Shown here piece after piece: positions 53,117-59,595 of a stretch of DNA of 64,000 nucleotides. How positions within the stretch are numbered: the first letter of the stretch is position 1; every line of letters begins with the position of its first letter. The position numbers and the translations under genes were made by a program. The notes under the pieces were generated by a model that worked only from the letters and a program-made list of their open reading frames with translations, did not search any database and was not told the DNA's origin. Source of the DNA: Bacteriovoracaceae bacterium (GTDB lineage Bacteria; Bdellovibrionota; Bacteriovoracia; Bacteriovoracales; Bacteriovoracaceae); NCBI GenBank assembly GCA_018649885.1, contig JABIHA010000074.1, positions 1-64,000 of the forward strand, written 5' to 3'.

Positions 53117-54247
53117 ATGAGTTTTATCTCCATAATTATAATTATCCTTAGTTTTACACTTTCTGGATGCCAAAACAGAGGGTTTAACCGCGCCCCTGAA
53201 AAAAAATCGACCACAAGTAAAACTGTATCTAAATCAACTCCAATGCTCAAACCGGCTGAAAAAAGGCCAAGTGTGTTGAAAAAGACCAAGGCCATCACTA
53301 AGGCCCCGACAAAAGTTGTGGCACAAGAAAAAATTGTCAAAAAGAAATCGAAACCCACTTTGACAAAGAAAGTGAAAACATACTGCTCTAAAATTGATAA
53401 AAAATTTCTTCATTGGGGTTGGGGTCTTAGCCAATGTAAGAAAACCAATTGGAATCATGTGAGAGACTCGGTGTGGGGAGACCCTTTAATTTGGGCCATA
53501 TACGGAAGTGAAAAAGAGCATAAAGTTACACACAAAGATACCACCATGATATTTTGTGGAGTACACGGTGATGAAATTACTCCCATAAAATTTTGTTTTG
53601 ATATTATTAGATATTTAGAAGAAATGGACCCTGCGGAATTCGATAACAAATTGATTGTAGTTGCGCCGGTTGTTTCACCCGATAGTTTTTTTAAAAAAAG
53701 ACCTACAAGAACTAATGCAAGGGCGGTGGATATTAACCGCAACTTCCCCACCAAAGATTGGAATAAAAAAGCTATAAAAATGTGGAAGACAAGATATAGG
53801 AGCGATAAAAGAAGGTATCCAGGTAAAAGTTCTCTGTCTGAGCCCGAGACCCTATTTCAAGTCAATTTAATAAGAAGATATGGTCCAGACAAAATTATCT
53901 CTATCCACGCACCTTTGACCCTTTTAGATTATGATGGACCTGAAGATGATGTCTCCATCAAGAAAACTGGTCAAGGGATTTTGGCCTCAAAACTTCTCTC
54001 CCAAATGAGTCAAAGTGCTTCTGGCTACAAAATCAAAAATTACCCTTACTTTCCTGGCTCACTTGGCAATTGGGCAGGAAAAGAAAGAAATATTCCTGTT
54101 TACACTCTTGAGCTTCCAGACTCTGATAATCGAAAACATAAAAAATACTGGGAGCTTTTTCAGCCAGCTATTGAGGCCGCCATTAATAAAGACTTAAGGC
54201 ACCCCAAAAAAATCAAGAAAAACAAATTAGTTCAACGCAGTTTTTAA
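53117..54247 (+). CDS. Lipoprotein with M14 zinc carboxypeptidase domain (MpaA-like)
   Basis: 376 residues. Lipobox FTLSGC near Cys18, then a Lys/Thr/Pro-rich linker to ~105, then an M14 domain: zinc ligands in FCGVHGDEITP (HxxE) and IISIHAPL (His), substrate-binding Arg/Asn in DINRNFP, catalytic Glu in VYTLELP. The family includes the murein-peptide amidase MpaA and D,L-carboxypeptidases. A lipid-anchored form would act on peptidoglycan in the periplasm, of self or prey. The extreme basicity of the linker is notable. Confidence 0.88.
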   Translation: MSFISIIIIILSFTLSGCQNRGFNRAPEKKSTTSKTVSKSTPMLKPAEKRPSVLKKTKAITKAPTKVVAQEKIVKKKSKPTLTKKVKTYCSKIDKKFLHWGWGLSQCKKTNWNHVRDSVWGDPLIWAIYGSEKEHKVTHKDTTMIFCGVHGDEITPIKFCFDIIRYLEEMDPAEFDNKLIVVAPVVSPDSFFKKRPTRTNARAVDINRNFPTKDWNKKAIKMWKTRYRSDKRRYPGKSSLSEPETLFQVNLIRRYGPDKIISIHAPLTLLDYDGPEDDVSIKKTGQGILASKLLSQMSQSASGYKIKNYPYFPGSLGNWAGKERNIPVYTLELPDSDNRKHKKYWELFQPAIEAAINKDLRHPKKIKKNKLVQRSF

Positions 54248-56616
54248 GCTGATTCCCCTTTAGGCATTTTAGGTAATTTAAAAACCATGATAATGGGGAT
54301 AATCAGAAAAATTGCACCCACAATATAGGGGGCACCAGAACCGCCTCTCCAGTAAAGTAGGCAAGCAAGAAGAGGACCAAAAACTCTCGCCAAGGCCCCA
54401 AGGGATCTAAAAACTCCAATGGCCTCTCCTTGATATTTACCGGGAGTGTATAGACTCACAAGAGATGTCAAACAAGGGATAGTCATAGCAGAGCCAACCG
54501 CTAAGAAGAAAAGTCCTAGAAAAAGTGGAAATGTTGTATGGGCAAAGCTTATAGAAAGCAAACCGGGAATTAAACAAACAAGTCCCATTAAGGCCATCTT
54601 TTTTTCTCCTACTTGATGGGCCTTTCTTCTTACAACACCACCTTGAACAAAGGCCAAAACAAAGCCTATAAAAATAAACATCCCGGCATTATCAAGAGAT
54701 GTATATGACAGTCTTTCAACGGCCAAAAATGTCAAAGTGAATTCCATTCCAGAGAAGGCCAATAAAAAGAGAAAGTGAGCAATATTTGTTTGGTTAACAC
54801 CAGCATAAGGCAGTGGTTTAAATAAGGTCAAAGGATTAGAAGAGCGTTTACTTTTGTGAATCTCTTGGTCATTTGTAGGTCTTGTTTCCTTAAACTTTTT
54901 ATATAAAAGACTAAAGCTTGCAAGACTAAGGATAAAACTTAAAAGAGCAGGAGTTGAAAAAGGATTGACTCCATATGATGCCAATTGAGGGAAACTTTTC
55001 GTAAGATCAATCATAGAGAGTATCCCTCCCATTGCTGGTCCAATAATAAATCCAAGCGCAAAGGCAATACCAATGAAGGCCATACCTTTTGAACGATTAC
55101 TAGAACTGGTTACATCGGCAACAACAGCTGTAGCAGTTGAAATATTACCGCCCATAATCCCACCCATTATTCGGGCAATACATAACAGAGTGAATGAACC
55201 TGAAAAAAACCAAAGCAGATAACTTAAGGCCAGTCCCATCACGGAAACCAGAAGTACCGGTCTTCTACCTATACGGTCTGAAAGCCTGCCCCAAAAAGGC
55301 GCTGCTAAGAACTGTAGAAAAGAGTACATCGCCCCTAGCACTCCTCCAAAGAGAACGACAGGCTGAACTTGGCCACCACCAGATTGAATCAAAGTGGTGA
55401 TTCCTTCAAAAATCATTTTCAAAAAAGGATTTCCAGCATCAACTTCAAGGTAATATTTTGCCATTGCTGGGAACATGGGAAAAATTATTGAAAATCCCAC
55501 TAAGTCTAAAAATAAAACAAAGAAGATGAGTTTTAGAGAACTTTTTGCATTTTCACTAAGTGGTGGAGATTCTACTTTTTGCTTAGGCATGATTTTTGTC
55601 ACTTCGCTTTCTAAAGGTTGATATTCTAAGTTTTGAGGGTCCCCGTCACCTTCCAATCGTGATACAAGGTACTCCCCAAACTCTGTGCTAAATTTTTCAT
55701 CACTATTTAAACATGGAATTAAATGGATTTGAGCCCCGTCCTCTTTGACAAATTCAGCTAGCTCAAATCCTATCTCATCAATAGTTTCAAGACAGTCCAC
55801 AACAAAGCTTGGACAATAAACGTAAATATTTTTGTGCCCTGTAGCTGCCAGATCCCTGCAATACTTATCGGTGTAAGGGCCCAACCACCTCTCTGAGCCA
55901 AAACGTGACTGGAAAGTCATGTGGATGTCTTTTTCTTCAAAAATGCTGAGGAGCTCCTGCTTCATGAGATAAAACGTCTCACTACAGTGAAATAAATAGG
56001 GGTCACCCTTTTCTAAAATTCTTCTAAGCGGTATCCCATGAAAAGAAATCACTAGAACATCGCCAGGACACTTGTTCGCAGCTGCCTTTTTTATGATGCT
56101 GACACTTGCATCGATAAAGGCCTTAGTTTTATGAAAACTGGAAATAAATCGAATGTCACTAAGAGCGACTTTTTTATCTAAAATTGAGCTGATCCTGTCC
56201 CAAACACTTCCAGTTGTACTTTCTGAAAACTGGGGAAAAAGTGGAACTACAGTCAAACAATCAAACTTCTCAAGGTCTGCCAAGCTCTGCTCAACTAAAT
56301 TGTTTCCCAGCAAGTAGCCCACCCTTAACTGGATCCCATCGCGCTCCATGACCCCGGCCAAGGAGTGCCTTAAATCTTCAGTACCAGTAATAAGAGGAAA
56401 GCTTTCGCCGTCCCAAATACGAGCGTAGGCCTTAGCAGATCTTTTTGGCCTAAAGGGCAATACAAACAGCTCAAGGATGATTTTCCATAGTATTGGGTTT
56501 AAATCAACGACTTTAGGATCTGAGAGAAATTTTCGAAGAAAATCTCTAACATCTTTGATGCTTGGAGATTTGGGAGACCCCAGTTGTACTAATACAACTA
56601 GATCATTTTTTCTCAC
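54244..56616 (-). CDS. hemH: Fusion: ferrochelatase (HemH) plus MFS transporter
   Basis: 790 residues in one frame from GTG at 56616. Residues ~1-320 are ferrochelatase (VLVQLGSPKSP; VISFHGIPLRR with catalytic His; FQSRFGSERWLGPYTD; CPSFVVDCLETIDEIG), which inserts Fe2+ into protoporphyrin IX. A ~45-residue linker leads to a 12-helix MFS domain (~365-790) with the family motif GRLSDRIGRRPVLL, most like drug/H+ antiporters of the TetA group. No internal start with a ribosome-binding site occurs at the junction. The fusion may channel haem or porphyrin, or protect against porphyrin; this is inference. Confidence 0.92.
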   Translation of the reverse strand: MRKNDLVVLVQLGSPKSPSIKDVRDFLRKFLSDPKVVDLNPILWKIILELFVLPFRPKRSAKAYARIWDGESFPLITGTEDLRHSLAGVMERDGIQLRVGYLLGNNLVEQSLADLEKFDCLTVVPLFPQFSESTTGSVWDRISSILDKKVALSDIRFISSFHKTKAFIDASVSIIKKAAANKCPGDVLVISFHGIPLRRILEKGDPYLFHCSETFYLMKQELLSIFEEKDIHMTFQSRFGSERWLGPYTDKYCRDLAATGHKNIYVYCPSFVVDCLETIDEIGFELAEFVKEDGAQIHLIPCLNSDEKFSTEFGEYLVSRLEGDGDPQNLEYQPLESEVTKIMPKQKVESPPLSENAKSSLKLIFFVLFLDLVGFSIIFPMFPAMAKYYLEVDAGNPFLKMIFEGITTLIQSGGGQVQPVVLFGGVLGAMYSFLQFLAAPFWGRLSDRIGRRPVLLVSVMGLALSYLLWFFSGSFTLLCIARIMGGIMGGNISTATAVVADVTSSSNRSKGMAFIGIAFALGFIIGPAMGGILSMIDLTKSFPQLASYGVNPFSTPALLSFILSLASFSLLYKKFKETRPTNDQEIHKSKRSSNPLTLFKPLPYAGVNQTNIAHFLFLLAFSGMEFTLTFLAVERLSYTSLDNAGMFIFIGFVLAFVQGGVVRRKAHQVGEKKMALMGLVCLIPGLLSISFAHTTFPLFLGLFFLAVGSAMTIPCLTSLVSLYTPGKYQGEAIGVFRSLGALARVFGPLLACLLYWRGGSGAPYIVGAIFLIIPIIMVFKLPKMPKGESA

Positions 56617-57709: not shown

Positions 57710-57745
57710 AAAAAAAGAAAGGGAGCCTCCTGCTAAGCTCCCTTT
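57710..57745 (-). terminator. Intrinsic terminator of the AGGA small RNA
   Basis: AAAGGGAGC and GCTCCCTTT form a 9-bp stem with a 10-nt loop (57736-57727), followed by C and seven T (57716-57710) on the minus strand. A T tract on the other side (57743-57749, plus strand) would let it work in both directions. Confidence 0.93.
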
Positions 57746-57790
57746 TTTTCGGCATCCTGCCTGTACTCTGAGCAACATCCTGTCGCCCAC
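57710..57790 (-). ncRNA. Candidate CsrB/RsmZ-like small RNA with three AGGA loops
   Basis: About 81 nt on the minus strand from the predicted start near 57790 to the T tract. Hairpin 1: 8-bp stem 57789-57782/57776-57769 (two G-U pairs), loop AGGAU (57781-57777). Hairpin 2: GGC/GCC stem 57761-57759/57753-57751, loop AGGAU (57758-57754). Hairpin 3: terminator stem 57745-57737/57726-57718, loop UUAGCAGGAG containing AGGA. GGA exposed in a hairpin loop, with ACAGGAUGU near the CsrA consensus, is the hallmark of CsrA/RsmA-sequestering RNAs. No start codon with a ribosome-binding site is present. Function is inferred from structure. Confidence 0.75.
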
Positions 57791-57796
57791 ACTTCT

Positions 57797-57824
57797 ATTA
57801 TACAAAAGATTTGACCAGATCAAA
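57797..57824 (-). promoter_or_regulatory. Promoter and palindromic operator of the AGGA small RNA
   Basis: Minus strand TATAAT (57802-57797) is a perfect -10. TTGATC (57823-57818), 15 bp upstream, is a partial -35. The -35 lies inside TTTGATCTGGTCAAA (57824-57810), a near-perfect 15-bp palindrome suited to a dimeric regulator. A second palindrome GGGCTaAGCCC lies at 57917-57927, nearer the divergent gene at 57981. Confidence 0.7.
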
Positions 57825-57980
57825 GGTAGTTTTTTTTGGGTAATCTTTGCCCCTCAGTGTTAAAATGAGACCTAGCTCTAAGTTCATTTGCAGGAGCCCC
57901 TTTGGAGAGGTAGAATGGGCTAAGCCCTTAAATATTTTACATAAAAATACTTGAATGCGCAGGCGCCCATAAGGAGAAAA

Positions 57981-58313
57981 ATGAAGCTATTTAAAAAACT
58001 CACTCCTTTCTCCGAGAAATCCCCTCGGGAATACCCGGAAAAAATTTACACTTATTTTGTACCAGCACCTCCAAGAAGAAAGCATGGATACCGGGAAAAG
58101 GCCTTTGATAAACTAGCTGCCAGCGTAATTGCGAGAGGTTTTAAAATAGTCAGTGTGCACACCGAAAGTTTAAATACAGATGGTAGCTCTGGGATATGGA
58201 TTATTTTAATTTTAATGCCCTTACATAACGAAGCTGCCCAGTTAGACTTAGATGAACTGCAACCTTATTCTTTGACTGACGATTCAGAAATTATTTATGA
58301 AGAGAATCACTAA
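57981..58313 (+). CDS. Hypothetical protein
   Basis: Start at 57981 (MKLFKKLTPFSEK) with AAGGAG five bases upstream. 110 residues; basic N-terminus with Pro/Arg (PAPPRRKHGYR), a central beta/hydrophobic stretch (GIWIILILMPLH) and an acidic C-terminus. No family recognised. Overlaps the next gene by 17 bp, so the two are coupled. Confidence 0.7.
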   Translation: MKLFKKLTPFSEKSPREYPEKIYTYFVPAPPRRKHGYREKAFDKLAASVIARGFKIVSVHTESLNTDGSSGIWIILILMPLHNEAAQLDLDELQPYSLTDDSEIIYEENH

Positions 58314-59595
58314 ATTTATTTTACTTATTTCAAGTATTACAATACTACCAAGTTGTTCAGTTTTTATTGAAAATATTTTCGTTGAAAAAAATGAATATCA
58401 ACTTAAAGAAATAAAGAGCACAAAATACTGCCCAAAAGAAAGCAAACATGGAGCACATCGTTTTTATTCTTCCTCAGAAAAGGTCAATAGGCTTTTCTCT
58501 GATTTTTTAGAAAACAATAAAAATCTCAATCTATATTTTAGTGAGAAAATGGTTCTTTGGGGACTCATTCAAGTTAATGCTCAGCCTTTCCTTTCCTCCC
58601 CAGCTTCAAGACTTCAGGCAATTGTTTACTATGGAGGAAAATTCAAATTTTGGGATTTTAAGAAACCAGAAAAATCGTCTTACTCTTATATTAAAGCACT
58701 AGACGACATACTCCACGACTACCCTTCTAAAAGAAGTCTGAAGAGTCTTGCAGGGCTACTCGATAAAAAATTTCAATCTACTATTACTGTTAGTAAAGAG
58801 CTAGCTGTACTTCTATCGAAAAAAAGAAACCTTCTTTTGAAAAATCCAATATTAAAAAAGACCTACTTTCGAGATAATGAGCTACTTAGAGTTAATGAAC
58901 CACTTTTCAAAGTATCCTTTTCACAACTAATCGCAAAATACCAAAAAAAGAGCACGCCTTGGATTAAAAAAAACCACACACACCAAGTTCTATTTCCTAT
59001 TGAACTAGAAAATATTGATGATAATTTCGATTTAGCCGAGTGCAATTTTGATCCCGGACTCTATAAAAACAAGGTTTTTATACTCGATAAAGAGCAAATA
59101 TTCGTCACTAGCTTTGGGATGGTAGACCATAAACAAAATAGCTTTTTGGCAATTTCAGGGCAAAACCTAGCGAGCGTAGAAGAAATAGACAACTTCAAAA
59201 TGATTAGGGGGAGGTGGCCAAAAAGGCTCGGTTCTTGGTGCATTCTTCAAAACCAAAAACCAAAGCTTTCCGTTGTCCTTACCAGCTTTAATAGTAGGGA
59301 TTCGGGGCAACTGCTCATGGGCCCGCTAGAAAAAATTGAGAGATTAAAACTAGACCAAAGTAAAATATCAACATTAATAGAGGCCGGTCGAGAAATTTTC
59401 TTTCTATCCCCGCCTCGAATTTATATCGAGTCAAGAATTTTAAAAAATCAGCATATTGAAAAAAACTTGAAGTCTCAGTTGCCTGTATACCATGCAGATA
59501 AAATTGGGAATATTCACTCTTTGCTAAGAAGTGAAGACAAAAAAATGTCACTCATAATTGATTCAAGGTTTAATGGAAACTTACTCTGCAAATAA
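58297..59595 (+). CDS. Large lipoprotein of unknown function
   Basis: 432 residues. Lipobox ILPSC gives Cys20. The mature protein is basic with many aromatic residues and several Cys (STKYCPKES, DLAECNFDPG, LGSWCILQN, LLCK at the end). No family recognised. Its start lies inside the preceding gene and its end overlaps the ferredoxin gene, so it is the middle gene of a three-gene operon. An envelope role is inferred from the lipid anchor. Confidence 0.75.
   Translation: MKRITKFILLISSITILPSCSVFIENIFVEKNEYQLKEIKSTKYCPKESKHGAHRFYSSSEKVNRLFSDFLENNKNLNLYFSEKMVLWGLIQVNAQPFLSSPASRLQAIVYYGGKFKFWDFKKPEKSSYSYIKALDDILHDYPSKRSLKSLAGLLDKKFQSTITVSKELAVLLSKKRNLLLKNPILKKTYFRDNELLRVNEPLFKVSFSQLIAKYQKKSTPWIKKNHTHQVLFPIELENIDDNFDLAECNFDPGLYKNKVFILDKEQIFVTSFGMVDHKQNSFLAISGQNLASVEEIDNFKMIRGRWPKRLGSWCILQNQKPKLSVVLTSFNSRDSGQLLMGPLEKIERLKLDQSKISTLIEAGREIFFLSPPRIYIESRILKNQHIEKNLKSQLPVYHADKIGNIHSLLRSEDKKMSLIIDSRFNGNLLCK

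Follow-up and report, generated by a model that had tools for sequence, protein, structure and literature searches.

The window analyzed here is a stretch of 64,000 nucleotides, taken as a whole from contig JABIHA010000074.1 of a Bacteriovoracaceae bacterium. Its minus strand carries a short structured unit with its own -10 element and terminator, and the plus strand carries two genes that diverge from it. The features of the locus are the following.

57711..57791, minus strand: small RNA of ~80 nt, its start inferred from the -10 box and its end from the U tract
57797..57802, minus strand: -10 promoter element, a perfect TATAAT read in the sequence
57769..57789, minus strand: hairpin 1, CsrA-type site 1, an 8-bp stem closing on the loop AGGAU (57781-57777)
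57751..57761, minus strand: hairpin 2, CsrA-type site 2, GGC-AGGAU-GCC, the loop starting 23 nt past that of hairpin 1
57711..57745, minus strand: intrinsic terminator and U tract, from the terminator scan, with the loop UUAGCAGGAG containing GCAGGAG
57839..57851, strand not applicable: palindrome GGCAAAGATTACC, a probable operator, centred 43 bp upstream of the -10 box
57981..58313, plus strand: divergent neighbour gene of 110 aa, not part of the RNA, adjoining it in 80 of 100 loci
58297-59595, plus strand: lipoprotein-like gene of 432 aa behind the 110-aa gene, without a Pfam match

Further along the minus strand, positions 54244-56616 hold a single 790-aa ORF which, judging by its translation only, appears to encode a ferrochelatase-type enzyme fused to a major-facilitator-type transporter.

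The first-pass annotation had reported a perfect TATAAT, an ~80-nt unit without a usable ORF, and a strong terminator, all of which are borne out by the sequence and by the terminator scan. The three AGGA hairpin loops that it described, including an 8-bp stem on AGGAU, are all present in the window, but only the first two are conserved as GGA sites. The -35 region is poor, and the RNA promoter fails a sigma-70 scan. The 88-nt stretch folds with -33.9 kcal/mol (z = -3.6), and none of 200 shuffles is equally stable. Two GGA hairpin loops also arise in 31 of 2000 dinucleotide shuffles (1.6%); judged from one sequence alone, the two-GGA-loop pattern is moderately unusual, and suggestive without being decisive. 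The feature is judged real because ~115 of the 129 genomes in the family share it and its stems covary strongly. Comparison of the homologues reveals no conserved ORF in the unit: the frames opened at AGGAUG end early or run off, and the linkers differ in length. Among 100 homologues, the -10 box reads TATAAT in 68 and TATACT in 24. Since the -10 box, the terminator and the palindrome are all conserved without any conserved ORF, the unit meets the criterion of an independent non-coding unit, the transcript itself not being shown.

A DNA search of 97 relatives returns ~27 homologues, every one within the window's family, which comprises Bacteriovorax, Halobacteriovorax and relatives (Bdellovibrionota, Bacteriovoracales, as placed by named records). 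With E 0.01 as the limit, a covariance model built from 28 copies matches 117 of the 129 genomes of the family; the score is 40 bits or higher in ~115 of these, and the RNA is nearly always a single strong copy per genome. Against the window, at positions 57714-57798, the model (R1) scores 82.7 bits, with a whole-genome E of 4.4e-18. Elsewhere in the phylum it yields weak matches only, of ~30-37 bits. As candidates for homologues outside the family these were rejected: most are generic terminators, and a few are AGGA hairpins in tandem. Regarding the covariation, standard pairs occupy 94.7% of the pair cells in a 100-copy alignment and 14 of the 17 pairs have changed on both sides in a compensatory manner, six of them among the 8 pairs of hairpin 1. 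The covariation score is reached by none of 500 shuffles and is lost when the pairing partners are slid. This alignment was fitted to the model's own structure and is thereby biased in its favour; the result is upheld by a MAFFT alignment of 28 copies made without such fitting, which has two-sided changes in 10 of 17 pairs and a score again reached in 0 of 500 shuffles.

While the stems vary, the loops do not drift freely. Across the copies, the hairpin 1 loops are AGGAU, AGGAA, AUGGAU and AGGAC, and those of hairpin 2 are AGGAU, AGGAA, AAGGAU, ACGGAU and AGGAC. GGA is retained in 99 of 100 copies in hairpin 1 and in 96 of 100 in hairpin 2, over covarying stems; it is gone from one of the two loops in five copies and from both in none. 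One divergent copy, L211, is poorly aligned in hairpin 1. Both loops thus hold the CsrA recognition motif A(N)GGA(N), although the stems change and so do N and X. The same pattern, with A and GGA fixed and N and X variable, is that of the A(N)GGAX rule established for RsmE (PMC4005645). The majority of the loops are pentaloops devoid of N, a type whose affinity for RsmE is 10- to 1000-fold below that of hexaloops (PMC4005645). The loop-to-loop spacing amounts to 20-25 nt in 96 of 100 copies, around 22 nt. This is close to the 18 nt given as optimal for a single CsrA dimer, and also to the 21 nt between the hairpins of the Campylobacter jejuni flaA leader (PMC4894983). The terminator loop behaves differently and is not counted as a CsrA site, because its GGA is found in just 28 of 100 homologues; a three-site decoy is rejected on the same ground. 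The GCAGG core of this loop (57736-57727) is nevertheless kept in nearly all copies.

The window genome contains one csrA gene, in the order flgL-csrA-fliW. Using Pfam models, by which csrA, fliW and fliM were identified, csrA is found in 119 of 129 family genomes (72 of 73 of the best assemblies) and fliW in 115 of 124 (71 of 72 of the best assemblies). Several genomes without csrA or fliW miss both, as would be expected from assembly gaps at adjacent genes. Like the RNA, csrA is nearly universal in the family, so that co-loss gives no support either way. All 33 CsrA sequences compared keep R6, R44 and E46 as well as the FliW-contact residue N55. The roles of R6, E46 and N55 have been described (PMC11934962); R44 has a role in RNA binding. 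The CsrA length is mostly 72-77 aa in these 33 sequences, and N55, the C-terminal extension and fliW beside csrA together satisfy the definition of a FliW-type Csr system. Hfq was not detected in 30 genomes.

Upstream of the RNA, the palindrome follows the consensus GGnAAnnnTTnCC, with 7 or 8 of the 8 consensus positions present in 96 of 99 copies vs 1.5% of shuffles, and its centre is mostly located 42-48 bp upstream of the -10 box. The GacA/UvrY box TGTAAG-N6-CTTACA was not found upstream of the RNA, the best scores being no higher than those of shuffled sequence. A search for further palindrome copies in ten genomes returned no recurrent second target, with counts no higher than those of a reversed-pattern control. 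The 110-aa gene and the lipoprotein-like gene adjoin the RNA in most family genomes. The 110-aa gene has no Pfam match and is confined to the window's family among 241 genomes of the phylum. Since it is conserved beside the RNA, the palindrome could also serve this gene.

Candidate targets are found among the flagellar genes. Following up the weak model matches revealed AGGA hairpins in tandem at start codons, read at L214 and L221 outside the family and at L222 and L223 inside. In L221, which comes from a different family of the phylum, such hairpins (around oriented position 1217) overlap the start codon of a flgK-like gene. Of 18 flgJ leaders, located by ORF positions, 15 exhibit an AGGA-loop hairpin on the Shine-Dalgarno or close to the start region, and 11 a tandem; the corresponding shuffle means are 0.3 and 0. 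The tandem spacing is 22-27 nt (mode 22), similar to that of the sRNA. The leaders of the neighbouring flgM, flgK and flgL bear a hairpin in 3, 3 and 0 cases and no tandem. The fliM gene first surfaced in one genome, in a scan of all loci, and was then checked as a prediction: its leaders (L273-L301, the window genome being L298) display an AGGA-loop hairpin on the Shine-Dalgarno in 29 of 29 cases, with a second hairpin upstream in 14 of 29. Control ORFs give an AGGA hairpin in 13 of 92 and a tandem in 0 of 92. The AGGA hairpins at the Shine-Dalgarno could partly reflect the Shine-Dalgarno itself, yet the control genes are without tandem. The csrA leaders contain one AGGA hairpin in 6 of 17 genomes, the window genome included; there, the flgJ leader has only a weak tandem (3 and 4 bp), and the fliM leader a single hairpin. 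The fliM leader is thus a possible CsrA-controlled leader in its own right, an inference made from its sequence. The names flgJ, flgK, flgM and flgL rest on gene position and on reading of the translations, not on a family search.

The RNA resembles CsrB/CsrC and RsmX/RsmY/RsmZ of the Gammaproteobacteria in being non-coding, in having a promoter and a terminator, in presenting GGA in hairpin loops, and in its occurrence in a genome with csrA. It differs from the CsrB/RsmZ RNAs by two conserved sites instead of many and by another palindrome in place of the GacA/UvrY box, and its genomes carry fliW. An Rfam scan reports no family at the gathering threshold, the CsrB/RsmZ families included; under relaxed settings, the top bacterial sRNA match is PrrB_RsmZ, a CsrA-titrating RNA (20.3 bits vs a threshold of 44 bits). 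The unit therefore matches the CsrB/RsmZ RNAs in every testable feature except the control site, yet stays below their Rfam thresholds, and its binding and titration of CsrA remain unproven. The TwoAYGGAY RNA of Rfam also consists of two hairpins with GGA-containing loops. It is absent from the matches of the Rfam scan, relaxed thresholds included. Among bacteria with FliW, the nearest earlier claims concern C. jejuni and Geobacter sulfurreducens. The flaA mRNA leader of C. jejuni, which titrates CsrA, likewise carries a pair of GGA hairpins, 21 nt apart, and its genome also encodes CsrA and FliW (PMC4894983). However, it is part of an mRNA, whereas the family RNA is short and free-standing, with a promoter and a terminator of its own. 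In G. sulfurreducens, CsrB/C-type sRNAs have been proposed as CsrA decoys in a genome with FliW (PMC5568370, PMC11934962), but these are machine-learning predictions and were called uncharacterised in 2026.

What is established is a conserved structured unit, its loop motif and spacing, the presence of csrA and fliW in the genome, and matching hairpins in flagellar leaders. From these, the ~80-nt stand-alone sRNA is likely a two-site CsrA decoy that derepresses flagellar genes in a FliW-bearing lineage, transcription, CsrA binding and the direction of regulation being inferred. According to this model, the RNA would be made under a transcription factor probably bound to the upstream palindrome, whose role is itself inferred. 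Its two hairpins, ~22 nt apart and each offering an A(N)GGA(N) loop, could fill both RNA-binding faces of one CsrA dimer. Synthesis of the RNA would lower the amount of free CsrA, and leaders with a matching AGGA hairpin would be freed from repression, above all those of fliM and flgJ, and that of csrA itself in some genomes. FliW may inhibit the same CsrA in the same cell by protein binding. Because only two sites are conserved, each RNA is expected to titrate at most about one dimer, and it would need to be abundant. The support for the decoy reading is comparative only, without expression or binding data behind it. The proposal of a CsrA-sequestering sRNA in the first-pass annotation is thus supported by comparative evidence, as a two-site and not a three-site RNA, transcription and CsrA binding remaining inferred. 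Its expectation of a csrA gene and its assignment to a Bdellovibrionota-type organism both held, as did the covariance search that it proposed for stems conserved around an invariant AGGA loop: the stems change and the loops keep A(N)GGA(N) family-wide. A link to exopolysaccharide genes, which it evoked, is unsupported, the matching target-side hairpins lying on flagellar genes.

Among the other explanations, the one that survives best assumes that CsrA does bind the RNA, but that the RNA is an effector or client which CsrA stabilises or presents and which acts by base pairing or another route. It has a precedent in Bacillus subtilis, where CsrA promotes pairing between the sRNA SR1 and its mRNA (cited in PMC7652899), and the GCAGG core of the terminator loop is kept though unneeded for CsrA. 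However, no single-stranded seed is conserved, since the linkers outside the hairpins and the terminator differ between copies in both length and sequence, and the two sites are spaced much as in the candidate target leaders; we find this explanation unlikely. An ordinary base-pairing sRNA, whose AGGA loops would pair with UCCU-like mRNA stretches without CsrA, is less plausible still, to the point of being very improbable. Base-pairing sRNAs typically have a U tail and exposed, conserved loops, but the loops here are 5 or 6 nt long with N and X variable and A and GGA fixed, which is a protein-recognition pattern, and the 30 genomes searched lack a detectable Hfq. A leader or attenuator of the downstream gene, in the window a same-strand response regulator starting ~70 nt past the terminator, can be practically ruled out: the downstream genes fall into ~40 unrelated clusters over 99 loci and lie on the opposite strand in 54 of them, so that this cis-leader reading was rejected for want of conserved downstream genes. 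Practically ruled out as well is a ribosome decoy or small-peptide gene, suggested by the likeness of AGGA to a Shine-Dalgarno and by the start codon that AGGAUG adds to it, since the loops do not lengthen toward AGGAGG, the AGGAA and AGGAC variants abolish AUG in at least one quarter of the copies, the frames differ and stop early, and the coding reading fails for lack of a conserved frame.

The two-site decoy thus remains the preferred reading, and the variation of the downstream genes between genomes is a point in favour of a stand-alone RNA. To our knowledge of the literature searched, outside which most subscription journals and all preprints fall, nothing pairs CsrA with Halobacteriovorax, and the few small-RNA papers on Bacteriovorax or Bdellovibrio found there are, by title and abstract, apparently not about such an RNA. 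The RNA, previously unnamed, has the shape of a double decoy for CsrA, a flagellar regulator, even though the bacteria that carry it also possess FliW, thought to replace such RNAs. Across bacteria, FliW and BarA-UvrY (GacS-GacA), the driver of CsrA sRNAs, show a strong anti-correlation (PMC4682653), and according to a 2020 review it was still to be determined whether FliW and sRNAs act jointly in any species (PMC7652899). A bolder reading, to which we lean by a narrow margin, is that two antagonists, a palindrome-regulated two-site decoy RNA and FliW, act simultaneously on one CsrA throughout the family. If true, predatory bacteria would offer a clear example of one CsrA shared by an sRNA and FliW, with flagellum assembly genes (fliM, flgJ) under its control. 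A near-universal conserved decoy in a FliW-bearing family makes the FliW/sRNA question testable in culturable predators. For Bacteriovoracales, the analysis puts forward a post-transcriptional flagellar circuit whose proposed leaders are those of fliM, flgJ and csrA. It also suggests that, in minimal form, CsrA decoys reach beyond the Gammaproteobacteria. Lastly, phage records return no match to the RNA, and viral contigs give three pattern matches, one of which is identical in sequence to a family copy and is likely host DNA.
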